Positions 20,676-63,912 of a stretch of DNA of 64,000 nt are shown one piece after another. Numbering within the stretch: the first letter of the stretch is position 1; each line of letters starts with the position of its first letter. Location: contig OY783208.1 of the NCBI GenBank assembly GCA_963678705.1, forward strand, positions 19,556,207 through 19,620,206. Direction: 5' to 3'. The DNA is from Panorpa germanica (lineage: Eukaryota; Arthropoda; Insecta; Mecoptera; Panorpidae). Made by a program: the position numbers and the translations under genes. The notes below the pieces were generated by a model. That model had not been told where the DNA came from. It made no database searches and saw only the letters and a program-made list of their open reading frames with translations.

Positions 20676-20754
20676 TTTAGGCAGATTGCTGATAATATAA
20701 CAGAAATATAAAAAAAACAACTATGTGATCATCTTTGTTAAATGTTACGTTATT

Positions 20755-25137: not shown

Positions 25138-28100
25138 TTACACTTCTATATTGTTTTCTACCACAAAGTTTGTTACTATTTCTGCTGTTGCTTCATTTGT
25201 CACTAAATAGGATATGTTGACTGGGAACTGTGTTACAATACATAATTTATTTAAAAGTCTATCAATTTTTGATGCTAAAAGATGACACCCTAGAATTATA
25301 TGGTCCAAAGAACCTTCTTCTCCACATCTACAATTTGGTGTGTCTTTTATATTTATTTTGTATAGATGAGCTGGACATCTAGAATGCCCAGATTTCATTC
25401 GACAATTTGTTGAAATATATCTCCGTGAATGATTTTTATTAAACCATGTGGTTGTTGGAATTTTTTGATTCGCTGCAAAAAACAACTTTCCAGTACTTTG
25501 ACTTTTCTCATTATATATATTCTGCCATTCTGCCATACAATTTTCTTTAATTATTTTTTTGGAATCATTTATTGACCAATTTATTTCGATTATTTCTCCA
25601 TCTACACAAGCTTCTTTGGCAAGTTTGTCAGCCATTTCATTCCCTTTTATGCCTACATGTCCAGGAATCCAAATAAGTTTAACATTGATATCACTTTTTT
25701 CCATTTTTAAAAGATATTCTTTAATTGAACATATTTTGTTATTATTATTGTTTTTGAATTTATTGTTATTTAAAGATACACAAACACTACGAGAATCAGT
25801 GAAGATTAATATATTTTTATTGTCAGTGTTTTGTATTATTTCTAATAATTTCATTATTGCTGTTATTTCTGTATTATAAGAATTTGTGATATTGTTAAGT
25901 TTGTATTTGTACTGTTGATCTGTATTATAATTGAAAATGCCAATTCCTCCAGTTTTAGAGTTTTTCTCGAATGAACCATCGGTAAACCATATACTCCAAT
26001 TTATATCATCTTTTGTTATATATTCCATATATTTTTGATAAATTATTTCCTTGTTGTCATTCTTCTTGAACAAATTTATTTCTGTATGTATTGTTGTCAT
26101 GCTTATTTCTAATGGAAATTTGAAAAAAGGTATAATGTTGTGTACCTCTAAGTTTAAGTTATTATATCTATCAAAACTAGTTAAAAGTGCCGGTTTTTTA
26201 TGAGTTGTCCAATATGGTTTATTATAAAGAACATATAGTTTAGATAATCTTGTATTTAAGAAGCCACATGAGTTATGTCTGTTTTTACAAAAGAAACTGT
26301 CTGATATTTGTTGTATTCTGATATTTACTGGAGGAATATTAGTTTGATAGTTGAGGATTTGGATTGGTGTTGAAACCATTGCATCTAATATTATTCTTAA
26401 ACATTTGTTTTGTATAATTTCAATTTTTTTTAATCTTGAGTTATTTGCGGTGCAGATCATAGTACTAGAATAGTCAATATGCGGTCTAACAATAGCTTTA
26501 TATATTTTTATTAAGGTTGTTGGGTATGCGCCCCATTTGTATCCTGCTATACATCGCATCAAATTTAAGCCTTTTTGACATTTGTTAATAATATGTGCAA
26601 TTTCTTTCGCCCAAGTGCTTTTCGTATCAAAGAATATACCCAGAAATTTGGTATTTGAACTAACAGTTATATTTTTGTTTCTGATGGTTATTTTTGGACT
26701 GCAGTTTATTCTATGCCTTGTAAATATAACTATTTTACTTTTTTCTGACGATATATTTAATTTGATTTCCTTTACTAAAATATCTAGTTTATTTAATTTT
26801 GATTGTAATCTGTTTTGAGCTATATCTTGTGTATGGCCCATACTATAAATAACCATGTCATCTGCATACATCAGTACTGTTGTGTTGTTATCTGATAGTG
26901 TTGTTAACTTTTCTGTGTATATGTTGAATAATAAGGGAGATAATATTGAGCCTTGTGGAATTCCGTGATTACATAGTATAGGACCAGTTAGCTTATTATT
27001 GTATCTAACTGTTATTTCTCTATTTTGGAAGTAGTTTATAATCCAGTTGGATATTTTGGAAGATATACCTATGTTTTCTACTTTTTCTTTTAATATTTTT
27101 AGATTAAAATTGTCATAAGCAGCTTCAATGTCAATGAAAGCAGCTATCATATAATGATTTTTACTGTATGTTCTTTGAATATCGATATTCAATATGTTTA
27201 AGTTATGCTGCGTACTTCTTGTTTTTCTAAACGCAAATTGTAACTCAGATAATCTTTTATGATGTTCGAGATACCACTCCAGTCTGCTTTTGATGATGGA
27301 TTCCATACTTTTGCCCATACATGATAGTAAAGTAATTGGTCTGAATGATTCTTCTTTGTTTGGATCTTTTCCTGGTTTTAATATAGGAACAACGATATGT
27401 TTTTTCCAGTCTAATGGTATATCAGCAGTGTTTAATGACAGATTATATATTTGTGTAAGATGATTTATTGCATTGTCAGGTAAGTTTTGTATCATTTTGT
27501 AATTTATTCTATCAAATCCTGTGCTACTGTTTTTATTATGATTTAACGCGAAATTTACTTCATTTTTATTTATGTTATTATCTAGAAAATTATCTTTTAC
27601 GGTGGTGGTGGTAGTAATATTTAAATTGTTGCTCTGTGGAAATTTTTTTTTAATGAATTCTTCTATTAAATTTTCATTATCACTTATCCTTTTAGTACTA
27701 TAGCTTTTATTGTTAATTTTTCTTATATTATTCCAGACAATGTTGGTTGTTGTGTTTGGGTTTAAATTCTCGCAGAAATTTTGCCATTCTATTTTTTTTC
27801 TGGCTCTAAAATATCGTCTGGTTTTAGCTTGATGTTTTTTATAATTTAAATAATTCGCCATTGTCATGTTTTTATTAAAAATAGTTAGTGCTAATTTTCT
27901 TTGAGCTATCATTTTATTGCACTCTGTGTCCCACCAAGACGGTTTTATTTTATTAGGAGTTATATTATACAATCTGGTAGATGGGATATGTATGTCTGCC
28001 GAATTATTAATAACATCTATAAATTGGTTGTATTTGTTTTCAACATCTTGGGGATTACTTGTGATTCCATTTGTGCTAAGGTTTGAAATTCTGCTTTCTA

Positions 28101-28866
28101 TTTCGAGGCTATATTTCTCCCAATCTGCTTTTCGGAAATTTCTCCTCGTTAAATATTCAGATGTACGGTAACGGTCTTTATTATAGTCATTCAAACAGAA
28201 AAAAATTGGGTAGTGATCACTATCTAAGCTATCTGCAAGAACTTGCCAGGAAGTAATTTGTTGTGTTAACGTCATTGATACCAATGTGAGATCCAATATA
28301 CTGTCCCTTGTACTGAGATTGCTTACTCTAGTTGGTTTATCATCGTTGATAATATTTAGATTTTCGTTTTCTATGAAATCTAACAATTCGTTACCTTCAT
28401 ACTGACTACCTGGACAATTTATATCCCAAGCAAGATTAGTCGCGTTAAAATCTCCAGCAAGTATAACAGGAACATCTATTTGTTGTTTTATCTGTGACCA
28501 GTTTGAATTAGATAGTTTATGATTCGGTTTAGCATAGATTGATAAAATACATATTACATCAGTTTCGTTATGTGTTAAAATTATTCCAGCTATTTCGACC
28601 GAATTAAATGGGCTATTTAGCATTACTCGTTTATATTTTATAGATTTACGAATCAAGATAGCAACACCCCCGTGGGGATTATAGTTTGTATTCTGTATCC
28701 TATCTTCTCTTTCAATAAAATAGCCTTTGATGTTGAAATTGAGATTTTTTGTTAAAAACGTTTCTGATAGTATGCATATATGTATGTTATGCTTCTGTAA
28801 CATATGTTGTAGTTCCTCTTTAATATATCTGACTTCTCTGCAATTCCATTGAATTAAATTTATCAT
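25138..28866 (-). CDS. I-group ORF2 protein: AP endonuclease, reverse transcriptase, RNase H
   Basis: 1242 codons, uninterrupted. The N-terminus starts MINLIQWNCREV and carries AP-endonuclease signatures LSETFL, GDFNATN and SDHYPIF, for target nicking. The RT follows with RPITLLSCMGK, FIDIEAAYDN, IPQGSILSPLLFN and the catalytic YADD at residues 667-670. RNase H has WFTDGS (Asp 963), the Glu in NTEITAIM, FTDSRS and IPGHVGIKGNEMADKLA. The C-terminus has a Cys/His cluster (CRMKSGHSRCPAH, then CRCGEE and HIILGC). ATG at 28866 matches the usual start just before the WN motif. It acts in target-primed reverse transcription in the nucleus. No inactivating change is visible. Confidence 0.92.
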   Translation of the reverse strand: MINLIQWNCREVRYIKEELQHMLQKHNIHICILSETFLTKNLNFNIKGYFIEREDRIQNTNYNPHGGVAILIRKSIKYKRVMLNSPFNSVEIAGIILTHNETDVICILSIYAKPNHKLSNSNWSQIKQQIDVPVILAGDFNATNLAWDINCPGSQYEGNELLDFIENENLNIINDDKPTRVSNLSTRDSILDLTLVSMTLTQQITSWQVLADSLDSDHYPIFFCLNDYNKDRYRTSEYLTRRNFRKADWEKYSLEIESRISNLSTNGITSNPQDVENKYNQFIDVINNSADIHIPSTRLYNITPNKIKPSWWDTECNKMIAQRKLALTIFNKNMTMANYLNYKKHQAKTRRYFRARKKIEWQNFCENLNPNTTTNIVWNNIRKINNKSYSTKRISDNENLIEEFIKKKFPQSNNLNITTTTTVKDNFLDNNINKNEVNFALNHNKNSSTGFDRINYKMIQNLPDNAINHLTQIYNLSLNTADIPLDWKKHIVVPILKPGKDPNKEESFRPITLLSCMGKSMESIIKSRLEWYLEHHKRLSELQFAFRKTRSTQHNLNILNIDIQRTYSKNHYMIAAFIDIEAAYDNFNLKILKEKVENIGISSKISNWIINYFQNREITVRYNNKLTGPILCNHGIPQGSILSPLLFNIYTEKLTTLSDNNTTVLMYADDMVIYSMGHTQDIAQNRLQSKLNKLDILVKEIKLNISSEKSKIVIFTRHRINCSPKITIRNKNITVSSNTKFLGIFFDTKSTWAKEIAHIINKCQKGLNLMRCIAGYKWGAYPTTLIKIYKAIVRPHIDYSSTMICTANNSRLKKIEIIQNKCLRIILDAMVSTPIQILNYQTNIPPVNIRIQQISDSFFCKNRHNSCGFLNTRLSKLYVLYNKPYWTTHKKPALLTSFDRYNNLNLEVHNIIPFFKFPLEISMTTIHTEINLFKKNDNKEIIYQKYMEYITKDDINWSIWFTDGSFEKNSKTGGIGIFNYNTDQQYKYKLNNITNSYNTEITAIMKLLEIIQNTDNKNILIFTDSRSVCVSLNNNKFKNNNNNKICSIKEYLLKMEKSDINVKLIWIPGHVGIKGNEMADKLAKEACVDGEIIEINWSINDSKKIIKENCMAEWQNIYNEKSQSTGKLFFAANQKIPTTTWFNKNHSRRYISTNCRMKSGHSRCPAHLYKINIKDTPNCRCGEEGSLDHIILGCHLLASKIDRLLNKLCIVTQFPVNISYLVTNEATAEIVTNFVVENNIEV

Positions 28867-29063
28867 TTTAACTGTTTTAATTAATGATTAATTTTTATAT
28901 CTGATGTCTTGTTTTTCGATTTATTTATATATTTTATTTTTTCTTTATGTTTATATAATTGTTGTTGATTTAATATTTTAGTAAATTTATTAACCGATTA
29001 GGTTTAGTGATGTGAATAGAGTTTTTATTAAAAAATAAACTTAATTTATATATTGATGTTTTC
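28867..29063 (-). other. Spacer between ORF1 and ORF2 of the I-group element
   Basis: About 200 bp, AT-rich, with short stop-limited frames. It separates the likely ORF1 end (about 29064) from the ORF2 start at 28866. No separate gene is seen. Confidence 0.5.
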
Positions 29064-30482
29064 TTACGAGTTTGGCCATTGTACACTAGATATTTGTTTC
29101 TTATAGCTTCTAAGAGATTGGGATGTAATATTAGGGTCTTTGTTTGTATCTTTAATTTTGTTATCATTATTTTTATTATATATTGATTTATAGCAGGTAT
29201 CATTATCATTGTTTTCCATTGTAATATCAGGTTTCTCTTGGTTGATTTGCTTTCTGTTTTTTCCTTGATTAGTTTTCTTAAGGAATGTGTCACTTTCTTC
29301 ATTGTTAGGTTTCTTTTCTTCTTTTTGGAATTGGTTCTTTAGTGGATGTCGTAGGTTGTGGTTGACTGTAAGATCTTTGTAATGAGTTACCTGTATTTGA
29401 TTTATTCACTCTGGTATTGGTTCTTCTGGTTAAAGGGTTTGGTTTGTATGTTGGAATTATGTTGATACTATTGTATTTATTAGTGATATTGGGAAAAGTC
29501 TCATTGTAGTTTAGAGCTTCAAAAGAGTTTTGAGTTCTTACTGAGTATAATTAGTCTGTATTTTTTTCTGTTAATTCTAATTTTGCTTCATAAAAACTGA
29601 GATTGTGTTGGGCCATGAGATCTTTTATCTTGATTTGTCTTTTTTTTTCAGGACATTCATTGTCTGTAGCCTCGTGGTTAAGTTTACAATTTATGCATGT
29701 CGGGTTAGGAGATGTGCATGCAGTACGTAAATGATCTTCACTTCCGCAGAATTTACATTTTGCTACTTTTGCTCTACATTTTGTGGCTGCATGTCCAAAT
29801 TTAAAACAATTATAACATTGTATCGTCTGTTGTACAAATGGTTCACATGCTCGTCTCACTCTCCACATGTAAACATAAGCAGGAATAGCAAGTCCTTCAA
29901 AGAATAATTTCACTGTTGTACTGGGTTCATATTTTATAGCTCCGTCAACTCTTAGTTTTCGATTTAACCTTTGCACTCTCGTTACTTTAAAAGGTGGACA
30001 CTCTATATTATTTAAAATTGTATCTTCCGAATACTCGATATCAACACCTTTTATAATAGCTACTTTTGTGCACCAGTAAAATGGGATAAACGCTTTATAT
30101 CCATTGTTTTTCAGCAATGTTGATTTGGTAATTTCGTTAGCTAGTATTGCATTAGCACATTGAACGATTACTCTATTTCTTCCCACTTTTTTAATTTCTA
30201 TTATATTAGATTTATTGCTAATTTTGCAAATTATTTCTGCTAATTTAATGAACTAAAAAATGTATTTCCATCACTATTATTTTTAACAATCATTACTTTA
30301 TACGAGTCATATTTTGTTTCTGTGTTGTATAAATTATTATATATTTTTTTAACATTGTCACTATTGTTATTTAAGTTTTCTGCCATATCACTGGATGTTT
30401 TTTCTGTAGGAAATGATTTGTTAGTCACAGAGTTGTTTTTATTGTTCGGATTTTTATCGGGAGGTTCAGTCTCCATATCCAT
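29064..30482 (-). pseudogene. I-group ORF1 (nucleic-acid-binding, three CCHC knuckles), disrupted
   Basis: The start ATG at 30482 opens an Asn-rich acidic N-terminus of about 80 codons, ended at 30240 by what looks like a single-base loss. The following frame (to 29554) encodes a GRNRVIVQC segment, VQRLNRK and three knuckles CYNCFKFGHAATKC, CKFCGSEDHLRTAC and CINCKLNHEATDNEC. A TAA at 29551-29553 interrupts sequence that plainly continues with SVRTQNSFEALNY. A further shift near 29330 leads to a Lys/Asn/Glu-rich tail ending about 29064. Expected product is about 470 residues, normal for ORF1. ORF1 proteins bind the element RNA in a ribonucleoprotein. At least three lesions are inferred. Confidence 0.7.
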
Positions 30483-33269: not shown

Positions 33270-34330
33270 CCTACTTCTGGAGTACATAAACAGAAATTAT
33301 AAAACAAGTTGATTTAGATTACACCGAAGAAACATTAATAAATAACATCATATGTAACAATTTTAAAATTATTTAAGTCCAAAGACTTAACAGGAAAGTA
33401 ATTGATAATAACTGATTAACTTAATTTAATAGTTAATAACAGTAACTTAACAGTTAATATTTACTGATAATGGTATTAAATACGCACCATCGACAACTCT
33501 TAAACTGTTTTTCGAAGATATAAATTTACCTAAATATTTTTAATTATGTTATGGAGAGTACGCTGAGTTATCGAACCATACATCCAACCAATTTTACAAT
33601 GCTACAAGTGTCTAAAGTATGGCCATACTTCTACCAAATGCCATTTTCTAATATCCAAATGTCTAGCCTGTGGAAGTTCCAAACATGCAGTATCTACATG
33701 CACAGCTACAACTGCATGGTGTACAAATTGTAGCAATAACCACCAAGCAACAGACAAAGACCTGCCCTGAGACATTTGTGCTAAATAAAATTATAATTAA
33801 GCTAAGTATAATTAAACAATGGATTCTTAAAATCTAAGATACCATGAGACTCACGACACAGTAGTAGGAAGGGAAAACACTGACCACCTTTTTTCCGTCT
33901 GGACACAAAATAGGTTCGACCAACTCCGAAACTATAATAAGATCATCCCACCTATGGTAGTCTCAACAGATGTGCCTACACTTTTAAAGGAGGATTTTTA
34001 TTCGAAACATAAAACTATACAATCCCACGTTCCTTATGTTCCACAAAAAATTCTATTTGTAATCTATACTTACCAAACAATCAATATATAATTATATCAG
34101 ATATAGAAAACATATTACCACAATTACCCCCCACCTCCCCTCTTCATATTACCTACCAGAGTCCTACCAGATTTATAACGAAGTGATTATTTTTTAATTC
34201 AACTTCAAATCGTAAACAATACAACAGAAATAATCTGGTAAAGATTAAGATGGAACATCTCTAAAGCAGATTGGAATCTATATATTAAAGAAATAACTAA
34301 TAATAACGTAACATTTAACAAAGATGATCA
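33270..34330 (+). mobile_element. Old I-like element remnant, right arm (3' of hAT insertion)
   Basis: This continues the ORF1 that is broken by the hAT-like element at 31165-33261. A VQRLNRK-like segment near 33375 parallels the same motif in the young element's ORF1, and the CCHC array follows at about 33555-33740. The endonuclease part is mostly lost through a deletion of about 200 bp at 34150-34165, where a short copy of TCTGGTAGGA fills the junction. Confidence 0.65.
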
Positions 34331-34380
34331 CATAGTTGTTTTTTTTATATTTCTCTTATATTATCAGCAATCTGCCTCAA

Positions 34381-35231
34381 AGGCAATAAGCTTCTCACAT
34401 GATTAAGCAATTACATGTAAGAGAAACATTCCAGTAAATGCTCTCTTGTTTTTATATACATTATACTCGTATACATTGAACACTATTCCCTATCTATGAT
34501 CTAAAACTAAGTCAACTGGTTGATATTGAATTAACCTGCGGGGTTTCCTGTTTTCACACACGTTCAGTTCATTCACCAACGCATTGGAGTGGTTTATTAG
34601 TCTATCACTATATTTTGCACTGGATTGGTATATTTTATTTTTGATGGATGCTTTTGGACTGTCTTTCTCGATGACTTCATTAGTGACGTAGTATGGTGCA
34701 TCTACAATAGCTCTTAGTACTTTATTTAATAAACGTTGGGTAATGGATATATTGGAGTTGCATGCAGTACCCCAAAGCTGAATTCCGTAAATCCATATGG
34801 GCTTTAGAATGGTTTTGTATAGAAGTATTTTGTTGTCCAGAGAAAGTTTTGACTTTCGACTAATAACCCAATACAATTTTCTGATTTTGAGACCAAGCTG
34901 CTTTGTAAAAATGTGCTTTTGCCAAGTGTGCACTCTGTCCAAATATATTCCAAGATATTAGGCGTCATTTGATTGTGGAATTACACAATTATATATTTTC
35001 ACTGGCGGGCAAATTTCTCCGCGCATGGTATATGTTACATGAGCTGCTTTAGTTTCGTTTGCTTTTATTCGCCGTTGCTTGAGCCATTCTTAAATCATAT
35101 TGAGGTTAGTCTGTAGATTCCGTGATGCCGATACTGGGTCAGTATGTGATGCTAATATAGCAGTATCGTCAGCAAACGTAGCAACAGTAGTTTATGTTGT
35201 ACTTGGCAATTCGGTAGTGTAGAGAAAGTAT
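34381..35231 (-). mobile_element. Jockey-clade RT fragment, right arm
   Basis: This is the inverted-arm copy; the open stretch is 34490-34942 and carries the same Ser variant as unit 2. It is not functional. Confidence 0.8.
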
Positions 35232-36093
35232 AGTGTCCTCACTGGATGGGTTTCATATTTTGACCATGAAGTGCCTATTAGTCATATATGATATCAATAG
35301 TTGATAACCTGGTACGGAAGTATTTCTTTCAGTTTATATTAAAGTCCTATGTGGCACACTTTTCAATTCACAATTCAAATTTTTACCTGCTACATCCGTC
35401 AACATTTAGATATTTCATAAAATAGACACGCCAATACACATTTGTTAACATAAAGTTCAATCAACAATTGAAACATCAACCCCTAAGAAATGAGCCTACA
35501 AACCCATATTTACCATGATGGCGGCCTACAACGCCTTTTTAACAGTTCTACATATTTACATAAAAGAAACTGATATTATTGTTGAAATAAATGGGCTTGT
35601 GAACCATGGCATAAACTTTTTATTGCTAAGACAAAATATTTATTTAAGCCCATTTCGTCTTCTTTAAATGTGGATAACCAAATAGGTCATTTAGGTTGCG
35701 TACAATCACAGTAATGTACCATATATTCAACCATCCAGCCATCTATTGAACAAATATTAAAACACATATAGGTTAAGCTGTTCTTCAATAGATGTCGCTA
35801 ACAGAAGCTAAGATTATTTTAATTTGTTTCATTTAAGGAGATCTTAGTACCACCGTAGTGTATTTAATTTCCTTAACAATATTATATTACTTATAACTTT
35901 TATGACCTAATGCCTTTTAAATATTCGCGGTTACTCGTGCGGCGACTAACTGTGGAAGCGATTTTGCCAAATCTTACATCGTGTTTTAAACAGAGGAAGT
36001 AACGGATGATTGTGATATTTTTTTTTATTGAATTATGTGTGGCGGATGATTGTGATGATATTTTTACAAATTGAAATTAATATGAATTAGAAA

Positions 36094-36252
36094 ATGTGTA
36101 ACAAAACACTTGCAGCTTTATCAAGTTTAGGACGACATGAGAAGACTCACTTAGGTTTAAAACCATTTTCTTGCTCTACATGTAGTAAATGTTTTTCAAG
36201 GCCGGGATCCTTAAAATACCATCAAAAAACTCATTTAGGTTCAAGTGTCTAA
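36094..36252 (+). CDS. C2H2 zinc-finger mini-ORF, right arm
   Basis: ATG at 36094 starts 52 codons with a half finger and one full C-x2-C-x12-H-x3-H finger, ending at TAA 36250-36252. It is probably a gene fragment. There is no upstream exon with consensus signals that I can identify. Confidence 0.5.
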   Translation: MCNKTLAALSSLGRHEKTHLGLKPFSCSTCSKCFSRPGSLKYHQKTHLGSSV

Positions 36253-36599
36253 AAGGCTTCTCAGGGTTGAGTTAAGAAAATTAGGATTTAAATTTTCTAA
36301 ATTAACTTATCTTCATTTCCATAAGTTTAACTGTGGAAATGTTCTTTAATAGATAATAAAAAAAATATGTAGAACTCATGCGTTGAAAGCCAATGGTTTT
36401 ATTTATATGCATTCTAAATTTGTAATCGTATTAAAGATCCGTATGATTTTGTTGTCATGTCCACTCCACCTGTCGGAATACAAATGAAGATAAAGTTAAT
36501 GCGAATAATTGCAGTGCAATAGTAATAGAAACTTCAAAAAAAGTGACACTTTACCAAATTGTTTCTACTATTGATTGTGAAAATAAGAAAATGTGCATT

Positions 36600-36665
36600 G
36601 AGAGCTTTAGAGGAGCCCGGCTTAGGAACTATGGAGATACCTTCGAGTTCGATTCCTAGACCAGT
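36600..36665 (+). other. Possible tRNA-derived SINE fragment (B box)
   Basis: AGTTCGATTCC at 36646-36656 fits the Pol III B-box consensus GGTTCGANTCC with one mismatch and is followed by CTAGACC, as in a tRNA T arm. I do not see a convincing A box or cloverleaf, so a tRNA gene is unlikely and a SINE relic is only a possibility. Confidence 0.25.
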
Positions 36666-37010
36666 GCTATACTTTCTGGATTATTTGTTATAAAAGTAAA
36701 ATTATGTGCACACAGTAGCGATAACACAGTAAACCTATTTTTAAATAAATATTCATGTTAAATGTTTTAAATTAAAATTAGAATTGAATTTTTTTATATT
36801 TGATATTAACAATATCTTTAAAGAAATACAGGGTGTTCAAAAGTAAAGGACTACTTTAATTAAATGAAGTAAATGCCCAAAGACCGTGAAAAATAAATAA
36901 TTTTAATTTGAAATATCCATTGCATTAAGTCTGAGTCACTTTTCGTTTAATTTTTGTAATTTACTTAAATAATCCATCAACTTATTAAAAACCATTAAAT
37001 GTCATTCGGG

Positions 37011-37037
37011 TGTAACGGTTTCTCGATTACCGTGACA
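37011..37037. promoter_or_regulatory. Conserved promoter dyad upstream of exon 1
   Basis: This is an imperfect 9-bp dyad TGTAACGGT with a 9-bp spacer, about 180 bp before the ATG at 37218. The same block occurs upstream of every copy of the first exon, and one copy (42833-42859) is a perfect palindrome. The 3' part of the module also keeps a TCTTTAAAGTGA block and a TTCAGTA initiator-like site near 37161. A dimeric transcription-factor site is plausible but unproven. Confidence 0.35.
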
Positions 37038-37217
37038 TGCTTGTTACATTGATTAAGTTGCCTGCACTCTACTAATTGCGTGGCCAACATTATTGAGTAT
37101 TTTCTCATAAAGTAAAGTACGGTATTTTCTTGCGGGTCTTTAAAGTGAAAGTGATTAAATTTCAGTAAAACTTTTTACATTTTTAAAACAAATTGTGAGA
37201 ATTAGAAATAATTGAAC

Positions 37218-37277
37218 ATGAAGGTGTTAATCCTTGCTATCTTTGCAGTGTCTTGTGCTTTAACTACTATTGCTACG
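37218..37277 (+). CDS. Intact signal-peptide exon 1, possible alternative first exon of the protease-homologue gene
   Basis: ATG at 37218 opens a 20-codon signal peptide ending in phase 0 at the donor GTGAGT (37278). Exon 2 of the gene at 43738 begins in phase 0 on the same strand, and the nearer first exon at 43024 has lost its ATG. Splicing from here to 43738 would cross an intron of about 6.5 kb but would restore a translatable start. That use is inference; the exon may equally be an orphan like its two inverted copies. Confidence 0.5.
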
Positions 37278-37667
37278 GTGAGTTTTTTTTTGTTTTATTT
37301 GTTTGCTTTTACATTATTCGCTCTTCTGTTCAGCACCGGCTATCTAGGTTCGACGTGGACTTCCGGAGGACTTTCTGGGGACCCGCTGCTTGGTGCACCA
37401 TTTCTTATCTTCTTAAGTAATTTTCTAGTTGTAAACGTGGCATTGCTTCATGTTTATGTAGTAGCGACCGTCCACGGCAGATGTCAGCTGGGTGATGTTC
37501 AGCATCTTATGCAATAGCATGCAATAAGCATATTTTGAAGCTTTTTTGTTGTAAACATCGATTTGGGTTAGAAATTTGTTAAAAATTGACAGAAATATTG
37601 CTTTTTTAACTTTTTCCGATTTATTATTTGACCGTCATTTTGTGACAGCTGACGCCACTCTGTTGCA

Positions 37668-38078
37668 TAACAGAGATGGCAATACATTGAAAGGCAGAGG
37701 CATGTTTTACTTTCTATAAACATTTTTTTTTAACAAAGAATATTACAACTAAGCGTGCCTTATCTAGTAATTTATATATAAAAAGTTAAAATATAATTGT
37801 TCAGTTCTAGTCCACTGACTAGTTCCAAAATCTAAAAAACCACGTGTGTGGTTTGTAGTAGCAGAATCACAGGGTCAAGTCTTCCGGCTTGGTCCTCTTT
37901 TCTCTGTTATTAAGCAGCTGCAGAATTTCTTCATTCTGGTTTTTTTTTTCTATAAAATTGTACTACGAGTATATATTTATAAAGTTAGCAAATATAGTCG
38001 CATTATTACAGGAGAAAGTACCAATTATAATAGAAATTTTTGTTTCTTTAACCCTCAATTATATTGCCATCTCTGTTA
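37668..38078 (-). mobile_element. MITE with TIRs and TA flanks (right arm)
   Basis: This is the inverted-arm copy of the 411-bp MITE, with outer TA dinucleotides on both sides. Confidence 0.65.
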
Positions 38079-38209
38079 AGGGGTTACATGGGCCTCGTCG
38101 GGTAAAAAAAGGCCTATTTTCAATATTTTTTTTTCTATGTAAAAAATTATTTATTTAATTCAATTTTTTTTCTGTCTTATGGATACATATTTAAAGAATA
38201 ATTTCTGAA

Positions 38210-38790
38210 ATTTTCAAAAAAAAAAATTAAAACTCCTCCATTGTGACGTCATTTCCGGTGACCCTTCGAAAAAAAGGTGCGTCCGCGTTGTCAGCATAAC
38301 TCCTGACAGGATCATCAAAAATGATAAAACAAAAATAAGTGTTTTAGTTAAGACCATAAACTCGTGCTTGAACGAAGGAAAGAAAAAAAAGTAAAAATTG
38401 GAATTTTGGCAGACATTTTTCCAAAAAAATGAAATTTCGGTCAAATTTGCTTGACATTTTGCTTTTTTTTAAATAGTTGTAATTGAAAAAAAAAAATCCT
38501 TCGTTCAAGCACGAGTAAATTGTATCTCGAACACCTGTGTAAAATTTCATCAAGATCGGTTAAGTAGTTTTCGAAAACATTTAACAACCGACTTTGAAAA
38601 CACGGTTCCCAGAAAAACGCGTTTAAACTTTTGAGTAACAATAAAACTGACTTGGGGCGCACACCTTCTAAAGGCTGTATCTCCGAAACTATTATTCGGA
38701 TCGACTTGAAAATTTAGGATAATATTCTTGAGATGTGGTAGAAATTAATAAGCCAAAAAAAAATCGATTTTTTGAACCCACGAAACCCTT
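38210..38790 (-). repeat. Dispersed repeat with 19-bp internal hairpin (right arm)
   Basis: This is the inverted-arm copy. The hairpin arms are conserved, including the loop length of about 117 bp. Confidence 0.6.
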
Positions 38791-39709
38791 AAGCAACAGA
38801 GTGCAAAAAAAATTTGTCAGAAATTCAACCAGTTAATAAAAGTATTTATAAAATTGTTAAAAATAAGTGACAAAAAACTAAAAAACGAATACGCCTCCTT
38901 TCGTAAAACGAAAAATGAATCATTATTGTACCTGGAAAAGATTTGAAGTTAAATATTCAGTGTGGGAAGATTCAACTCAAAAAACCAATTGGGTGGAACA
39001 AGCTAAAATTTGAGCTTTAGATGGTAAATTTTGTGATTTATTTATATCCAATTATACACATACAATACATATCTTTTGGAATCTTTACTATTCAATGCAA
39101 ATTTTTTGTTTTAGAAAATATGGAGATAAGTGGAAAAATGTTGAACCTTGGAAATGTAATTTATCGGAAGTAAATAATTATATAACTGATATACTCTAAT
39201 TTAAAATGATCCAATTCGTTTAATTATATTGCTTAATTAGTTTTTAATAAACTTGCAAAACGTCCTAATTGTCGAATAATTGATAATGGAATTATTGAAT
39301 GGAAAAAGCTCAATAAGGATGTAAATTCAACATCAAACAATAAGAAAAGGCAATGGATAATTAGGCGGCTAGAAATTGGTCCTTTAAGTTAAAGCTCCGC
39401 CTGTAGAACCCAAACCTTTTTAGAAATACCGCCAGCGATGCAAACTAGGCAAATTATATCCAGGATACCGATGAAACATTGTAGATATACTAGCGTTTCG
39501 CCCCGTCGCAAAGTGACGTGTTTATATTATTTGTGATAAAATTAAAACTTATTTATTACATTGAACCTAATGCGAAATATTATTTTCAAGTAATTTTTGC
39601 TAAAATATATGTTTTTTTGAAATGTATGTTTTTTTATTGTGTTCTAATCCTTCCATTTACCACAACTAATCCCTGTCTTGAAAAACGTTCAGGACCCCGC
39701 TCCTAAACC

Positions 39710-41680
39710 CCAATTATCACGTTTTGGCTTCATAGTTCTCTAACGTTCACTGTCGCACTTTCAATTTAATTTCCCTGCACCTCCGCCACAGAGCGCCAGA
39801 GTGACAAAAGTAAAATTTTTCAGAAAACGAGTGTAAAGTTAAGATCGTATAAAAAATTCTGGAGGTCATTTATAACAATTTCTTTATTACTACTGACATC
39901 TACACATATGTCTTACTTTGTAAAAGTAATGTGAAGTAATTCAAATAATTACCTTTGACACAGGAACTGTTTTTATAAAAGCCAGTCTGCACTTACACCC
40001 TTTTGCTTCCTAGTAAGTTTCTTACACCCCTTTCCCCTAAGGAATTAGGATACTTTGTTATATTATTTAGGATCAATAAAACATAAGCTTTAAACTCAAG
40101 GTCTTCATTTAAGGGCGTCTTTCCTTTTGAATTTACGTGTTCTTTGCCTGAATCAAGCAAACTTTTTTTTTTCTTTTCCAATTACCTTTACATGTTACTA
40201 ACTTTTTCCTTCTTCAACGCGTACCTTTCTCTTCTCGAGATAATGATGATGATGACATTCTTTGGTTTGATGTCCATATTTTAATCAATATCATCGGGAA
40301 AACTAAAAACAAATATTTACTATTTGGTTAATTATTACCTTATGATGAAGGTAATGAATTATATCCCTTTTATTCGAAGTGCCTCATAAGTACTTTATTT
40401 TTTAATAATTGTTCGCTAAGATATATGTTTAGAATTATTTATTTTTATCCATGTCATTTTACACCTATCTCCAATTAATTTCTGTACTTATAAATGCCAA
40501 GCGCCTTGTACTTAATTACTCCCAACTCCAACACCACCACTTCTGTTACATTCTTGCCCTTATCGTTCCCGTTCCTGCACTTACAATTTAATTCCACTAT
40601 ATTGCCACCCCTAATTCCAGCACCTTAGCGCTGCTCTACATCGCCTCTAGCTAACAGTGCCCCTGTCTGATTATTGACACACCCACTTCTCCCTCTTACA
40701 TCTAGGTCATTCGAATCTGTAGCCTTCTGCCTCCAAACGCACCCGCTATTAATCTAATTCTGGATTACTACTGGATGTAATTTGAATATCTAACAAATAA
40801 AAAACTATTTTGCTTCTATTTAAAATTCTACATGCTAAATATCATCTTACACTTAAGAGAATGTAGTTTTGTTATATTTTCATTATTAATATATCAATCT
40901 ATACCTGCATACTAAATTTCAGGTTTGTTTATATATTTTAGTATTAGACCCCCCCCCCCACATACAACCGCTAATGAACTAAATTTGTCAAAATTTTGGC
41001 ACGGGGATCTATTCTTTGTATTAAAGTACATATATTCTAAATTATATCCCTCTGTCTCGATTTATTAATGTTTTTGGATTGGACTTAAGATACCCGCTGC
41101 CACTGAAAATTTTCGGCTTTTTTAATTATGTCTTTAATAAGCGTATATAGCGGCCAATATCTCAATTTTCAATATTCTAATTCTTTTGCGACACTGCTCT
41201 AATTGTTGACTAGTGTTCTGATTATTGACAAATATGCATAATTAGTTTATCTATACATATTCAAATTTTAATTTTTTTTATTCAATATTTCTGAGTTTTA
41301 CCATCTCAACTCCCGCCACCACAGGAAATTTATGATTTTCTATTTCTTTTTTATTATTTACTGTCTGCAGGAAGCCTACATACCAAATGTCAACATTCTT
41401 ATTCTATTCTAACATTGCCCGGAAATTCACGCCGCCACTGAAATTAAATTTCGGATAATGCATTATCTTTGCAATCTACAGAGATATTGACAAAAATTGT
41501 TTTTGCAATATTTCAGTTATTACAGAATCAGTTTTTCTAGAGATTTTCAACGAAAATATCAAGGACGTACAAAATCTTAGAAATTTGTCCTATACAAAAC
41601 ATCAAAATTTAAAAAACTTTTTATTTCCGATAAATATCTATATATTTTGAACATTTTGACAACTACGAACAATATAATAG
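39710..41680. other. Non-coding AT-rich tract with GC-box repeats (right arm)
   Basis: Mirror copy of 1190-3160; the C-run near 40950 is the mirror of the G-run near 1911. No gene is seen. Together with 39170-39709 it fills the space between the hairpin repeat and the LINE remnant. Confidence 0.5.
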
Positions 41681-41808
41681 GTAAACATATATTCCTTCTT
41701 TAAGAATCACCAAACCATCCGCTCTATTTCGGATGAAATTTTTAGGCCGGTTGCAACTAGTACCATACCTTCGCTTAGATTTTACGCAGAAAATTATTAG
41801 TTATATCC

Positions 41809-42439
41809 CTTTCTCTTAAGAGATTATGCATAACCTTCTCCTCCTTCTCTCTTCCTCTGTTATACTCTCACTCCATTTATTTTCCTTCTTTCATATTCTC
41901 TCCTTTCCTGATTTGTTCCCACATCAATCTCAAGAACTCCCTGCCTGTATTTTTTACTTTGTTTTCCCACCTAATCACTCTCGTTCTTTCTTCTACCCTC
42001 AAATTGCTCCCTTTCACTTCTTCTATTATCTACTATCACGGTGTGAATTTATTAACGCTTAACACACATTTTAAATACTTCTTCTGAACCACCTCCTGTT
42101 TTCTCCATTTTTCCACCCCCATATTTTTGTTCCGTACATCATCATTCTCTCAATTAATCCATCAAATAGCTACATCCTTCATTTTTTGTCCATTCCGATA
42201 ATCTTGCCTTTCTTTCCAGCGCCTTTGTTTGAGCTTCTTCCTCATTACCTTTCATGAACATATATTTAAAGTATCTAATTTCTTGCATCTCTTCTACCTC
42301 CTCGTTCTCTTATCTTCATCCTCCTTCCGATTTTAACCTCCCTCTTTTGAGATTTTTATCTTATTCACGTTCCTTTCCATGTTTTTCTCTTCCAGGTACT
42401 TTCCTATTCTTCTCATCACGTCTTTCATTTATTTATTCC
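41809..42439 (-). mobile_element. Decayed LINE RT remnant, right-arm copy
   Basis: This is the inverted-arm copy of the remnant at 430-1060, with the same broken frames and the same IWGWK-like segment on the minus strand. Hydrophobic frames on the opposite strand are antisense to its purine-rich tail and are not genes. Confidence 0.45.
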
Positions 42440-42832
42440 GCCTTCTGTAGCTTACCGCTGTACTAAGAGAAGATTACCGTAAAGTGATTGCATACGTCAG
42501 TAACACACAGTACCAACTGTAACGCATTTGAAAGCCCTACATTAAACGCGGAAAATTTAAATCTTTAAAACACAATATTATAGAAGATATTAACAATTGA
42601 AGTATCTGTCAATGAAAAACGTCATGCTTTTTTGCATGGATGTATATCTGTAAACTAAAAGCTATTAGCGATTAAACAATACAAGGTGTCCAACAGTCAA
42701 CGACTACTTTAATTAAATAAAGTAAATGCACAAAAACCGTGAAAAATAATTTTTTTTTTATTTTAAGTTTTATTTTTGTAATTTACTTAAATAATCCATC
42801 AATTTATTAAAAACCATTAAATGTCATTCGGG

Positions 42833-42859
42833 TGTAACGGTTTCTCGATTACCGTTACA
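42833..42859. promoter_or_regulatory. Perfect 9-9-9 dyad in the promoter of the SPH-FReD gene
   Basis: TGTAACGGT is followed by nine bases and then ACCGTTACA, a perfect inverted repeat about 165-190 bp before exon 1 at 43024. The mirror copy at 10-36 is identical. In the 37 kb and 55 kb promoters one arm is degenerate. Confidence 0.4.
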
Positions 42860-43023
42860 TTGTTTAAAATTGCCTGCACTCTACTAATTGCAATTCCAAC
42901 ATTATTGAGTATTTTCTCATAGAGTGAATTACAGTGTTCTCTTGCGGGCTCTTAAAGTGAATAAATTTGATTGCAACTTTTGACATTTTCTACACAAATT
43001 AAAACAATTCTAAATAAATTAAA

Positions 43024-58049: not shown

Positions 58050-59030
58050 TAGCGTTAATGGTATAAACAAATAAATTTTAACTTGAAACACTATACGAAT
58101 CGCATAAACAAATAAACATATAAACAAATAAACATATAAACTTTCACTTTAAACACCATACGAATCGCGTTAACAAATAAACAAATAAACAAACAACCAA
58201 ATACACATATAAGCTTTCACTTGAAACACTATACGAATCGCGTAAACAAATAAACAAATAACCAAATAAACATATAAACAAATAAACATATAAACAAATA
58301 AACATATAAAAAAATAAACATATAAACTTTCACTTGAAACATTATACGAATCGCGTTAACATATAAACAAATAAACAAATAACCAAATAAACATATAAAC
58401 TTTCACTTAAAACACCATACGAATCGCGTAAACAAATAAACATATAATCTTTTACTTGAAACACCATACGAATCGCGTTAATAAATAAACAAATAAACAA
58501 ATAACCAAATAAACATATAAACTTTAATTTGAAACACCATACGAATCTCGTAAACAAATAAACATATAAACAAATAAACATATACACAAATAAACATATA
58601 AACAAATAAACAAATAACCAAATAAACATATAAACTTTCACTTGAAACACCATACGAATCGCGTTAACAAATAAACAAATAAACAAATAACCAAATAAAC
58701 ATATAAACTTTCACTTGAAACACTATACGAATCGCGTAAACAAATAAAAATATAAACAAATAAACATATAAACTTTCACTTGAAACACCATACGAATCGC
58801 GTTAACAAATAAACCAATAATCAAGTAAACATATAAACAAATAAACATATAAACTTTCACTTGAAACATTATACGAATCGCGTTAACAAATAAACAAATA
58901 AACAAATAACCAAATAAACATATAAGCTTTCAATTAAAGCACCATACGAATCGCGTAAACAAATAAACAAATAAACAAATAACCAAGTAAACAAATAATC
59001 AAATAAACATATAAACTTTAAACTGTGAAT
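58050..59030. repeat. Minisatellite with alternating monomers
   Basis: About twelve copies of a core ACTTGAAACACCATACGAAT followed by CGCGT, each joined by a variable number of AAACAAAT/AAACATAT tetramer-type repeats. The base after CGCGT alternates A, T, A, T along the array, except once near 58795-58885, which shows a two-monomer higher-order unit. Hydrophobic frames on the minus strand are repeat by-products. Confidence 0.85.
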
Positions 59031-59129
59031 GGTACAAGCTCGGAAAGAAGACACTTGACACCGGCTGCCAATGCGGATCGGCAGTCAGGAAACGAGTCGC
59101 AGGCAGTCTAACGGGGACAACTCTGCCTG

Positions 59130-59500
59130 CTGTTCCGATCAAGAGTCCCCACATTACAGCAGTCGGAACAATAGGAGGAGTAAATAGGGGACCAATTGTG
59201 ATGGGAATATGGAAAAGCGGCCATGCAAAATTTTGATTATTACTGGTGCTACGCAATCACTAGTCGGATTGGAATTCATTAGACGACAAGAATTTACGAA
59301 GCAGATCATTGCACCATCAGCTCCCATTGTATTGCGAGCAATTACTGGAGATACGGCACCCGTTTCCGGAAAAATTAATTAAAGATCAGGTTAGGCCACA
59401 TGATCCGAGACTTTATATTCCTCGTAGAACCAATAGAGGAAGAATGTGTTCTGGGTTACGGTTGGATGTCCTCAATAAACTGTACAATTTTTCCAAGAGC
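59130..59500 (+). pseudogene. Ty3/gypsy protease relic
   Basis: A TGATQSLV segment near 59242 corresponds to the DTGA flap region of the aspartic protease, but the catalytic Asp position is Ile and flanking frames shift. The C-terminal ECVLGYGWM segment near 59445 matches the protease end (xILGxDxL). Confidence 0.55.
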
Positions 59501-60960
59501 TAATGTTATACAAATAGGAAGAGACCGGCTTGAGCTGCTAAAAGATGACACTGATGAAGCTCTAAATATCAGAACGAGTATTACAAAAAACATACAGCCC
59601 TCAGAGGATAAAGAAGTGACCCTTCCGGACCACCTACAGGACGTCTATGAGAAGTCAAATAAAAATTTAACTCTTGAAGAATCTCATGACCTGAAGATGG
59701 TACTACAAGACAACCAGGACATTTTTTCATCGGGAATAGAAGACGTGGGACACACGACATTAGTGCAACACCCAATAAAGGTAGGAGACGCTAGACCAAT
59801 TAAACAACCTGCACGAAGACTGCCATGGGGACAAGAAGAGGAAGTTGACGCCATGGTGGATCAAATGCTGCGAAACGGAATAATAGAACCCTCAACAAGT
59901 CCGTGGGCATCACCGATAGTACTAATAAAGAAAAAAGACGGAACGAAGCGATTCTGCGTAGACTACAGGAGATTAAACTAGGTAAATCAGAAGTGGAAAT
60001 AAGCAAGAAGATAGAGAGAAAACAGCGTTCACGACCGGGAAAGGTCTTTGGCAGTTTCGAGTAATGCCTTTTGGTCTATGTAATGTCCCCGCAACATTTG
60101 AACGATTAATGGATAGCGTCTTAAAAGACTTTTCTCCGGGAACATGCCTCGTGTATCTAGACGACATAGTGGTGCTTGGCAAAGATGCTAGAAGCCAAAT
60201 AGATAATTTGAAAATTGTCTTTCAACGATTACGAACAGCAAACCTTAAATTAAACCCAAAGAAATGCATCCTTTGTGCCGAACAAATAAGATATCTGGGA
60301 CATGTCGTCACTAGAAATGGAGTATCTACGGACCCGGAAAAAGTGAAAGCTATTCAGACCTGTCCGACTCCCACCAACCTGTCGGAAGTGCGGAGTTTCC
60401 TTGGGTTATGTGCTTATTACAGAAAATTTGTTTCAAACTTTGCGAAGATTGCAAAGCCGCTGTATGAACTTACGCAGAAACCAACTAGGAAGAGGCGACC
60501 CATTGTGTGGACTCCATCATGTGAAGACTTGTTCAACCAATTAAAGGGAAAGCTTACAAATGCACCGATCCTTGCTTTTCCCAAACGTGTAGGCAAATTT
60601 ATATTGAATACGGACGCATCGCATACCGGAATGGGAGCAGTACTCTCACAAATACAACAAGGCGAAGAACGCGTAATAGAATACTTCAGTAGGGTATTCT
60701 CGAAGGCTGAACAGAATTACTGTGTTACGCGAAAGGAACTTCTGGCAGTCGTTAAAGCTCTGAAACAGTTTAGACACTATTTGTGGGGCCAGCCATTTCG
60801 AATTCGTACCGACCACGCTTCGTTAACCTAGTTAACAAATTTAAAGGAGCCTGAGGCACAACTAGCACGTTGGCTACAACAGATAAGCGAATACCAGTAT
60901 AAAATCGAGTATCGGCCAGGACGTCAACACGCGATTGCAGATGCATTGTCTAGAAGACCG
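59400..60960 (+). pseudogene. Ty3/gypsy reverse transcriptase and RNase H, disrupted
   Basis: 59400-59981 ends with the [18 protein letters not shown] and FCVDYRRLN motifs. The next recognisable part begins near 60010 (KTAFTTGKGLWQF) and 60064 (MPFGLCN), so about 40 residues including the first catalytic Asp block are deleted. YLDD is at 60154-60165. RNase H follows with NTDASHTGMGAVLSQ, ELLAVVKALKQFRHYL and TDHASL. TAG at 60829-60831 stands where Trp is expected, and the frame continues to DALSRRPC near 60955. It is not functional. Confidence 0.85.
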
Positions 60961-61147
60961 TGTGCAACCAATAGATGTGACCACTGTGAACGTAAGGAGG
61001 CTAAACAGGAGCCCGAAAGCGAACCCGATGAGGCAATACTTATACGACATACTCAAATCTATTTGCAAAACGGTCGATTACCTCGTAACTATGATGATGC
61101 CGAAAAATGGGATCCCCACACTAGCAAAAGCAGAAATCAAAATGAGC

Positions 61148-61557
61148 ATGGAATACATCAGGGATGACCTATTCTTAGCACCCTCTAAATACTCGTTAGC
61201 GCATTGTGTCGCCGAAGACCTGCATATGAGTAAAGGTATTGCAGTAACATTCAAGGAGAAATTCGGAGATCTGAGAAAGCTTCGAGAACAACAGAGAAAC
61301 GTAGGAGAAGGTGCAGTTCTAAAAAAGGATGGAAGATTTATTTATTACCTGATTACAAAACGGAGGAGTTCCGGAAAACCAACGTACCATGATCTATGGC
61401 AATCATTGGTATCACTACGAGAACACATCCTGCAGCAACAAATAAAAAAGTTAGCGGTTAAATAGGTTGCGGACACGATCATTTGACGTGGGCACATGTA
61501 GAGCGTCTGCTGAGCTACGTATTCTACGATTTGGAGCTCAACATTCAGGTTTATATA
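61148..61557 (+). pseudogene. OARD1-like macro domain (ADP-ribose hydrolase type) inside pol
   Basis: About 137 codons with the family landmarks in order: YIRDDLF, SLAHCVAEDLHMSKGIAV, FKEKFG, GAVLKKDGRFIYYLITK, KPTY and IGCGHDHLTW, then a final LNIQVYI strand. The Lys of LITK (61358-61360) and the Asp of GCGHD (61477-61479) match the catalytic Lys and Asp of human OARD1, which removes ADP-ribose from glutamate. A frameshift near 61455 splits the domain. Its C-terminal half is in one uninterrupted frame with integrase, so it is part of the polyprotein rather than a neighbour. Confidence 0.8.
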
Positions 61558-62990
61558 CCAGAACCAGTATCAACCGTTCCCATAAGATATTTGACGCGGG
61601 CGAAGGCTAAAACCAAAGAAACTCAAGAAACAGTGAATAATGATTCGACTCCACCTGCAGATAGCTCGATTCAAACGACTGATCGAGCAGAAGATAAGCT
61701 GGGTGACATCGTAGGTGAAGCACCGAAAAAAGATGAAGATCTGGCACTCATTGCGGCATGGAAAAAGACAGGAATTAGACCTCAGTGGCCAGAGGTATCA
61801 GCCTATAGTCCTCGTGTAAAAGAATATTGGTCTATGTGGAACTGTTTAGAACTTCACGATGGAAGGCTATATCGGTTGTGGCATTTTGTAGACGACAGGC
61901 CACCCATTCGACAACTGATAGTACCTAATAAACTAGTCCCGGATATATTGAAACAAGTACACGATAGTTTCTCAGGTGGACATTTCGGGGTGCATAAAAC
62001 ACTAGAGAAGATACGGCAAAGGTGGTACTGGCCCCGTTGCGGAGCCTCAGTAAATCGTTGGTCTCGAAATTGTGACACTTGTACGGCCAGTAAAGGACCC
62101 CGACAGAGAAATCAAGGACCTATGCATACCTACACGGTGGGAACACCGTTCGAAAGAGTTGGAATGGACATTTTAGGACCACTACCACGGAGCCGAAACG
62201 GCAATAAATACGTGTTGATCGTGGTGGATTACTTCACCAAATGGCCTGAAATACTTCCTTTTCCGAATCAAGAAGCGATTACAGTTGCAAAAGTCTTTGT
62301 GCAAGAAGTAGTATCGCGTTATGGAGTTCCTTAAGAGCTACATTCGGATCAAGGAAGAAATTTTGAAGCCGCCGTATTCCAGCAGATTTCGAAACTTCTA
62401 GGAATGCATAAAACCCGAACTACACCATTACATCCACAGTCGAACGGCATGGTTGAGAGACTAAATCGGACGATAGAAGAATATCTGTCAAAATTTGTCA
62501 ATGCTAATCAAGACAATTGGGACGAGATGATACCTCTGTTTTTACTAGCATATCGGTCAGCGGTGCACAAAGCAACACAGCAGACTGATGGGACGAATGG
62601 GACGTGAACTCAGGTTACCCTGTGACATGATGTACGGATCTCCTCCCGAAAAAAAGTTTATTGGCAACGAAGAATACTGCGAAACCCTAGCGCAAGAATT
62701 AGAAGAGATCCACAAATTTGCAAGAGAACGCCTTCAGTTAGCGACGGATCGCTCGAAAACGCGTTATGATTGTAAGAAACAAATTCAGCTTTTGCAGAAG
62801 TGATGCGGTATGGCTCTTCTATTTTAAGAAGAAGATAGGACAAAGCCCTAAGCTACAAGCCAAATGGGAAGAACCGTATTTAATATAGGCTGTCATTTCG
62901 GACGTGATATACAAAGTGCAGAGATCAGCCCGAGGAAAATGCATGATTGTTCACCGAGACCGACTCGCAAAGTACGAGGGTGAAAATGCT
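61558..62990 (+). pseudogene. Ty3/gypsy integrase, disrupted
   Basis: A Thr/Glu/Lys-rich spacer (TRAKAKTKE and following) leads to the HHCC zinc region (HFGVH near 61981, CDTC near 62075). The catalytic core follows with Asp 62167-62169, Asp 62347-62349 and Glu 62455-62457, giving the D-35-E spacing. TAA at 62332-62334 and a frameshift near 62585 break it; the C-terminal part (GRELRLPCDMMYGSPP, then an HRDRLAKYEG tail near 62958) lies in other frames. The family function is cDNA insertion. Confidence 0.85.
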
Positions 62991-63054
62991 CCGGACTGGG
63001 AGTTAACTGAATCAGCCGCCTGATGAAAATTATAAGCATTAGGGACGAGCGCTT

Positions 63055-63069
63055 TTAAGAGAGGGAAAG
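63055..63069 (+). promoter_or_regulatory. Polypurine tract
   Basis: The purine run AAGAGAGGGAAAG (63057-63069) lies immediately before the LTR start TGTTAC; it primes plus-strand DNA synthesis in LTR elements. Confidence 0.75.
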
Positions 63070-63912
63070 TGTTACGAATTTGCGGGCGTCTGAGCATACA
63101 CAAATTATAGTTATAAAATAATAACTGGAATTAGCAGAAAAGGTTGCGCATCCCTGTACAAATATCAGGACATTTTGATAACGAAGCTGTTTACAAGTTG
63201 GCGCATAACTGATACGCGTGTTCCTGGAAATGAACATAAACAACTGCATACCATGCACTTGTGTTATTGTTTACGAGTGAACTTTCTAGAATCAAATATT
63301 ACGCGTGTTGAGTGGAACGTCATAGAAATAGTCGGAAGGTCAAAACAGCGTATTTGGTTAATTATAGGAATATTCTGGAAAGTCAAAGGTGTTGTGACCA
63401 GGGGTAGAGTACTGCGCAAACCGCTGATATAAAAGGAGCAGAGCATCGCGTCGCGAGTCAGTTTTTCCATCAGCAGTCAGTCCGCAAGAAAACATCAGTC
63501 AGAGAAAAATAAGTGCACAGTGAAATATTAAAAAGTAATAATTATAAAGTAGTTGTAATTGTTTTGTGTTAATAAATAACGTTTGTAAAAGTGTTAATTC
63601 TTCTTATTATTTTAATTGTGGCTATTTCTTAATTTAATAAGTTACAACGCGACTAAATAGTGTAAACAATTGCACCCGCTCGGCAATTGAAAGAACTCCA
63701 GTCGCAGGCGTACTACGGCGTATATTTAGAAGGTTCGAGAAGCCTAATCTCCAAATTTGTACCTTTAGCGTCCTAGAAGGTTCCAGAGCCAGACTCCCTT
63801 CATTCCCCTTTTACGCCCTTACAAGTTTGTATCATTTAGTGTTAGAAGCTGAAGAGGATAGTTGCAACGTGCACACAGGCCGTCTCCGTCGTCGCCAAGA
63901 AAAATTGTAACA
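63070..63912 (+). repeat. 3' LTR of the Ty3/gypsy element
   Basis: Starts TGTTAC and ends GTAACA, a 6-bp terminal inverted repeat of the TG...CA type. TATAAAAG at 63428-63435 lies 32 bp before a TCAGTT initiator (63458-63463), and AATAAA at 63571-63576 is a candidate polyadenylation signal. The 5' LTR is not in the window, so boundaries rest on the polypurine tract and the terminal repeat. Confidence 0.75.
63428..63463 (+). promoter_or_regulatory. LTR core promoter (TATA and Inr)
   Basis: TATAAAAG followed by TCAGTT at the canonical spacing (first T of TATA 32 bp before the A of the initiator). Confidence 0.6.

Follow-up and report, generated by a model that had tools for sequence, protein, structure and literature searches.

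An OARD1-like macro domain in the pol polyprotein of Ty3/gypsy elements of Panorpa germanica

Introduction

A 64,000-nucleotide stretch of the Panorpa germanica genome (GenBank assembly GCA_963678705.1, contig OY783208.1, positions 19,556,207 to 19,620,206 of the forward strand), referred to below as the window, contains a broken Ty3/gypsy retroelement in which a region resembling OARD1 (also TARG1 or C6orf130), an ADP-ribose hydrolase of the macro-domain fold, lies between RNase H and integrase. Does this region belong to the element, as an enzyme that a retroelement family captured and kept, or is it a fragment of a host gene that fell into a single dead copy? Accessory enzymes in retroelements indicate the pressures that the elements face, and the retention of an OARD1-type hydrolase in pol, by more than one family and in different slots, turns restriction of animal retrotransposons by ADP-ribosylation into a testable idea. 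We report that intact and recently inserted relatives of the window element carry the domain at the same place, that a second family carries it in another slot and a third retains a degenerate version, and we weigh what the domain may do.

Results

Judged by its sequence, the element at positions 59023-63687 of the window (plus strand) is a decayed and 5′-truncated Ty3/gypsy copy of a family that we call F1, with an OARD1/TARG1-type macro domain between RNase H and integrase. The window frame 60887-61462 matched solved human OARD1/TARG1 chains (4j5r) over query residues 88-189 with an E value of 4.7e-31 in a phmmer search. The N-terminal three quarters of the domain (61148-61462) contain the Lys codon at 61358; the C-terminal quarter (61462-61557), read from the list of open reading frames (ORFs), contains the Asp codon at 61477, and its frame is matched by the OARD1 hidden Markov model (HMM) in the locus record of the window's own copy (L001). 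A codon check agreed with the two catalytic positions given by an earlier first-pass annotation of this DNA, which had also proposed an HMM search against the macro family; here the Pfam Macro model gave no match on the broken pieces and the OARD1 profile and sequence searches did. As that annotation had stated, RNase H (frame of 60832-61167) and integrase (61462-62334) have one reading frame in common. The N-terminal part of the macro domain is one frame off, and the part that reads in the integrase frame, which had been put at the C-terminal half, is the last quarter, containing the IGCG.D motif.

An intact genome copy of F1 (L021) aligned to the window by blastn at 59023-59978 (95.6% identity) and 59991-63687 (93.5%). 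The window copy can be aligned only from position 2785 of L021 onward, the 5′ long terminal repeat (LTR) and most of gag being missing, and about 109 bases of reverse transcriptase (RT) remain unaligned. The C-terminal part of RT (RVT_1, PF00078, E 5.1e-21) lies at 60004-60306 and RNase H at 60508-60828 (RT_RNaseH, E 7.4e-36; RT_RNaseH_2, E 8.9e-31), with an in-frame stop directly behind it (60829-60831). Downstream of the macro domain are the zinc-binding H2C2 domain of integrase (61921-62094, PF17921, E 8.7e-21), the integrase core (rve, 62146-62604), which is weakly matched in two pieces (E 0.013 and 0.085), is broken by a stop at 62332-62334 and is whole in L021, and a remnant of the 3′ LTR (63070-63687) with 87% identity to the 5′ LTR of L021; all these features are on the plus strand. 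Since the frame is interrupted by both stops and shifts ahead of the macro domain and again within it, the window copy is dead. A tandem-repeat tract at 58062-59019 (periods 65 to 308) ends right at its truncated 5′ edge.

A six-frame search of the 464-Mb genome, in which 150 of 607 candidates were scored so that the counts are lower bounds, returned at least 153 matches. At least 29 F1 copies have a pol frame open through the macro domain (exactly 1389 codons in 18 copies and 1296-1382 codons in 11), and in intact copies the frame is single and unbroken. Nine copies (L021-L029) were examined in detail. Pfam searches with separate pieces of L021 gave the order protease, RT, RNase H, Macro, integrase H2C2, rve and p58_C. 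In eight of the nine copies pol overlaps by 139 bases, in a -1 relation, an upstream ORF1 of 417-447 codons, which is broken in L029 and in which Pfam found no domain at cut-off; the in-frame heptamers AAACCCA and GGGAAAC are present in the overlap of 8/8 copies.

The 5′ and 3′ LTRs of L021-L028, compared over 646-662 bases, show no mismatch in five copies and two mismatches in three, and those of L029 are 93.9% identical. F1 has thus been inserted recently and is a family rather than an accident. Eight copies are 6.8-7.0 kb long. The LTRs end in TGTT...AACA in six of the eight pairs as aligned; the aligned repeats of L024 and L027 end otherwise, probably because they run past the LTR. A 4-base target-site duplication was seen in six of eight copies (L021, L022, L023, L025, L026 and L028), which with such AT-rich flanks is weak evidence. 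On contig C5 three copies follow one another at intervals of 6361 bases, and on C197 two at 6255, spacings that would fit tandem elements with common LTRs. The 3′ LTR of L021 starts 46 bases past the last sense codon, which leaves no room for env, and no env ORF was found there.

The macro domain of intact F1 copies aligned with OARD1 over the whole domain (about 138 residues) with no internal gaps and an E value of 9.1e-43. Chance similarity to OARD1 was rejected on this value and on that of the window copy. The Lys and Asp of F1 align with Lys84 and residue 125 of OARD1, as counted along the chain with an inferred offset of 6; residue 125 is Asp in the aligned chain and Glu in a review (PMC7050489). 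Both motifs are present at 26 of 31 distinct F1 places. As for the other five, L007 has the Lys motif only, L006 has neither motif, and for L014, L015 and L018 the strand read was the wrong one.

Selection across copies had been suggested as a check by the first-pass annotation. Among the eight young F1 copies the ratio of nonsynonymous to synonymous differences per site (pN/pS), taken from 28 pairs that are not independent, was 0.12 for the macro domain and 0.13 for integrase; it was lower for RNase H (0.08) and RT (0.04) and highest for protease (0.37). Comparison of the L021 macro domain with that of a diverged copy, L030, gave 11 nonsynonymous and 24 synonymous changes, a ratio of 0.10 (binomial p 2.8e-9, assuming equal rates and with site numbers borrowed from the L021-L029 pair). 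The ratios of the remaining macro pairs ranged from 0.19 to 0.59, the highest of which (L029-L003) rests on few changes. These ratios indicate that the F1 macro domain is under purifying selection.

A second family, F2, which the first-pass annotation did not contain, carries a macro domain with 46% identity to that of F1 over 137 residues. In F2 elements ORF1 is of the gag type and carries a CCHC knuckle, and the longest pol frame has 1638 codons; among the matches listed, the frame has at least 1571 codons at 9 of 15 places. In L035, whose element spans about 11.1 kb, Pfam searches with pieces gave the order protease, Macro, RT, RNase H and integrase, and no macro domain was found at the RNase H-integrase junction. 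The F2 domain aligned with OARD1 over its whole length (about 138 residues, no internal gaps, E 7.4e-38) and keeps the Lys/acidic pair. The heptamer TTTAAAC is present in the ORF overlap in 4/4 copies, and downstream of pol in L041 and L042, where env was looked for, no sense ORF reaching 120 codons was seen; F2, like F1, thus differs from errantiviruses and other env-bearing gypsy elements. The LTRs measure 841 and 804 bp, and the two LTRs of a pair are 100% identical in both copies checked. F2 is a second recent macro-bearing family.

A genome search with an RT/RNase H piece, in which 138 of 1601 candidates were scored, led to three more families, F3, F4 and F5, from each of which one copy was fetched. 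F5 (L064, 754-5709) reads as one gag-pol frame of 1652 codons, whose gag part contains DUF1759; residues 1152-1290 form an OARD1-like domain (80.9 bits; E 4e-14 against OARD1) that occupies the RNase H-integrase slot, as defined by the Pfam matches on its flanks. The domain is missed by Pfam and detected by the OARD1 profile and sequence searches. It retains the Lys, and has lost the IGCGLD loop including the Asp, the HC motif and GIAV; no acidic residue was found at the catalytic position. The domain is open at three of four places (L064, L065 and L067), L066 being aligned with one gap; nonsynonymous and synonymous changes numbered 6 and 3 in L065 and 2 and 6 in L067, with no clear purifying signal. 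This degeneration, likewise new with respect to the first-pass annotation, fits either a lost need or a residual structural role. The F3 pol has 1373 codons; that of F4 (L063) has 1318 and is followed by a Baculo_F/Gypsy env. No OARD1 match was found in the single copies of F3 and F4 at E 10. Pfam found no dUTPase in any of the pol pieces searched (L021, L035 and L064).

Searches of proteins with the F1 macro domain alone as query gave at least six proteins among 134 candidates, and with the F2 domain one protein among 173. P0039, encoded on a 5.5-kb contig, has the order protease, RT, RNase H, Macro, and stops just past the macro domain, with no integrase seen. Its Pfam Macro score of 23.9 bits is over the cut-off of 22, and its domain aligns with nearly the whole of OARD1 (E 1.3e-32) with Lys and Asp retained. 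Pfam found no pol domains in the other six matched proteins, including those of Tenebrio, Tribolium, Brassicogethes and Cinara, and we take these four to be products of host OARD1-like genes. The beetle and aphid proteins P0033, P0034, P0036 and P0037 have one good OARD1-like domain each, with further weak macro-like repeats in P0033 and P0034, and possibly represent a little-studied insect OARD1 lineage. IMG/VR scans with the F1 macro domain, F1 RT and F2 RT gave no relatives. Nineteen IMG/VR loci (L043-L061) with OARD1-like domains had 29-41% identity to the query in a macro alignment scan.

In a 26-row macro tree F1 and F2 group with the insect-type OARD1-like proteins (support 97/94) and P0039 falls outside; the same group has 84/78 in a 25-row tree. 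F2 stands beside the beetle proteins in the 26-row tree (83/84) and with them in a 46-row tree (96/76), where F1 is unresolved. The capture of a host OARD1 gene, as suggested earlier, is supported by these trees for F2 and less firmly for F1, and the most likely origin of both domains is an insect-type OARD1-like gene. F1, F2 and P0039 lie apart from one another in the best macro trees; however, one clade of all retroelement macro domains was not rejected (approximately unbiased test, p-AU 0.178 without F5 and 0.364 with it). With 8.5 changes per site, the branch of F5 is so long that the position of F5 in the tree means nothing.

The integrase tree, with six rows, separates F1, F2 and F5 from F3 and F4 (100/100); in the RT tree, with seven rows, F2 groups with P0039 (96/94). 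F3 and F4 are close kin, with 81% identity in RT. Since these trees have so few rows, and the macro-less F3 and F4 are so closely related, gains and losses of the domain cannot be placed on them. By plain identity in RT the closest family to F5 is F3 (52%) and the closest to F1 is F4 (48%), which speaks against one simple macro-bearing clade. A single capture followed by a move, or two or more captures, would both be compatible with the trees.

Discussion

The accessory-enzyme strategy is already known, and an OARD1-type enzyme in Ty3/gypsy elements was not found in print. Among the papers listed in searches of the open-licence literature, with subscription journals and repeat databases outside the scope, we found no description of a macro domain within the pol of a Ty3/gypsy element, which is no proof of absence. 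Chromodomains of chromoviruses are C-terminal readers of histone marks that steer integration to modified histones. F1 resembles these elements in having an extra cellular-type domain attached to integrase, and differs in that the macro domain is N-terminal to integrase and appears enzymatic. Coronavirus and alphavirus macrodomains are of the MacroD type. They too are carried by a mobile parasite, but in RNA viruses, whereas the F1 and F2 domains are of the OARD1 type and belong to a reverse-transcribing element; the viral macrodomains counter host ADP-ribosylation (PMC7232374).

The first-pass annotation had likened the slot of the domain to that of retroviral dUTPase, and RT-integrase is indeed one of the retroviral dUTPase placements, next to gag-RT and a position after integrase (PMC5408684). 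In LTR elements of bdelloids and basidiomycetes dUTPase is found in pol between protease and RT (same source). These elements share with ours a captured cellular enzyme of nucleotide chemistry in the polyprotein, F2 having it in the protease-RT slot and F1 and F5 in the RNase H-integrase slot, and there is a likeness in life history as well; unlike dUTPase, the OARD1/TARG1 macro domain of F1 and F2 is of a type that acts on ADP-ribose. Macro domains are also known as additional ORFs of epsilon-like endogenous retroviruses (ERVs) of fish (Basta et al. 2009, as described in the review PMC4977317). These likewise place a macro domain in a retroelement, but that of F1 and F2 is inside Ty3/gypsy pol; the comparison rests on the review's description of the fish ORFs. 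The available part of a zebrafish ERV survey (PMC8672886) names no macro domain. The closest likeness is to OARD1/TARG1 itself, of the ALC1-like class, with which F1 and F2 share a gapless alignment and the counterparts of Lys84 and residue 125; the differences are the fusion of their domain into a retroelement polyprotein and the degeneration of the F5 version.

We favour, as probable though well short of certain, the reading that the captured ADP-ribosyl hydrolase protects the reverse-transcription or integration complex. It starts from the domain, its place in pol, its retention in recent copies, the purifying selection on F1 and the Lys/Asp pair. The processing, packaging, activity, substrate and host enzyme we infer as follows. 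The polyprotein would be made from gag by -1 frameshifting and cut by the element's protease, and the macro domain would be packaged with RT and integrase, either free or fused to integrase. It would act as an ADP-ribosyl hydrolase on ADP-ribose set by host PARP-type enzymes on acidic residues of element proteins or, alternatively, on phosphate ends of element RNA or cDNA. Removal of ADP-ribose would leave the ends fit for reverse transcription and for strand transfer, and would keep cDNA and integrase competent for insertion. Acidic residues, and terminal phosphates of DNA and RNA at either the 5′ or the 3′ end, are cleared of ADP-ribose by human TARG1 (PMC8053099, PMC7050489, PMC6582358). 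The first-pass annotation had named evasion of PARP-type restriction as a possibility. The parallel would be with the viral macrodomains that counter PARPs, here in a reverse-transcribing parasite, and both active-looking and degenerate natural versions are available for comparison.

Several points weigh against this reading. The Pfam Macro scores of F1 (L021, 21.4 bits) and F2 (17.5 bits) lie under the cut-off. The protease cut sites and the packaging of the domain are assumed. Ratios among young copies partly reflect short-term selection, and in comparisons with L029 the macro ratio averages 0.33, twice that of integrase (0.16), with 0.21 for RNase H, 0.10 for RT and 0.50 for protease. Five F2 macro domains differ, per pair, by 3-8 nonsynonymous and 1-6 synonymous changes, small counts that give no purifying signal, the nonsynonymous changes equalling or outnumbering the synonymous ones. 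Finally, the slot common to F1 and F5 can tolerate a dead domain, since F5 is without the Asp and the glycine loop.

A bolder form of the favoured reading, which we put forward tentatively, as less likely than not, is that an insect Ty3/gypsy lineage has armed itself, perhaps repeatedly and in two pol slots, with an OARD1-type hydrolase that strips ADP-ribose from the element's cDNA ends or integrase, F5 having since lost the need for it. If this were true, insects would restrict retroelements by ADP-ribosylation; we know of no description of ADP-ribosylation as an insect defence against transposons.

The F2 and F5 observations lend some weight to the view that the captured domain is a structural passenger, a fixed spacer of the polyprotein whose chemistry is irrelevant: F2 pairs lack a purifying signal, with the small counts noted, and the degenerate F5 domain is still open at most of its places with no clear purifying signal either. 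However, the young F1 domain is constrained about as much as integrase and the comparison with L030 shows strong constraint, an argument that is qualified by the weaker constraint seen against L029, and F1, F2 and P0039 retain the active-site motifs. We consider this view unlikely. Improbable as well is that the domain is a reader rather than an eraser: by binding ADP-ribose at DNA breaks or on chromatin modified by PARPs, it would steer the integration complex there, much as chromodomains do for chromoviruses. Macro domains can be readers (PMC7050489), the domain is N-terminal to integrase in F1 and F5, and F5 retains it without the Asp; yet both catalytic residues are kept in F1, F2 and P0039, the F2 domain lies far from integrase, and F5 has also lost the glycine loop that would be expected to bind ADP-ribose.

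More doubtful still is a house-keeping role with no counter-defence, in which the enzyme would hydrolyse O-acetyl-ADP-ribose or act on nuclear DNA-repair signals at the integration gap. O-acyl-ADP-ribose is also a TARG1 substrate (PMC7050489) and TARG1 relocates upon DNA damage (PMC10933786), but a small diffusible metabolite gives no reason for an enzyme inside pol. A host OARD1 pseudogene inserted just once, into a single dead element, is what the broken window copy alone could resemble, and the absence of the domain from all other gypsy copies had been named as the sign of it; this reading is rejected by the at least 29 open-frame copies, by near-identical LTRs in eight of the nine copies checked, and by the presence of the domain in F2, in P0039 and, as a relic in the same slot, in F5.

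Other features of the window

The repeats of window positions 1-42868 together form a large palindrome-like structure. Inverted arms pair 1-1920 with 40949-42868 and 1911-4653 with 38217-40959 (both 100% identical), and 16824-20896 with 34160-38232 (99%). A direct duplication with a spacing of about 12.2 kb lies within the same region (for example, 3705-4004 and 15889-16188). On the minus strand, at 25138-28887 and 12936-16040, ORF2 of a non-LTR retrotransposon was recognized by eye from the translation, with 1249 codons open in one copy and two open pieces in the other. A gag-like CCHC protein was likewise noted by eye at 29551-30252.
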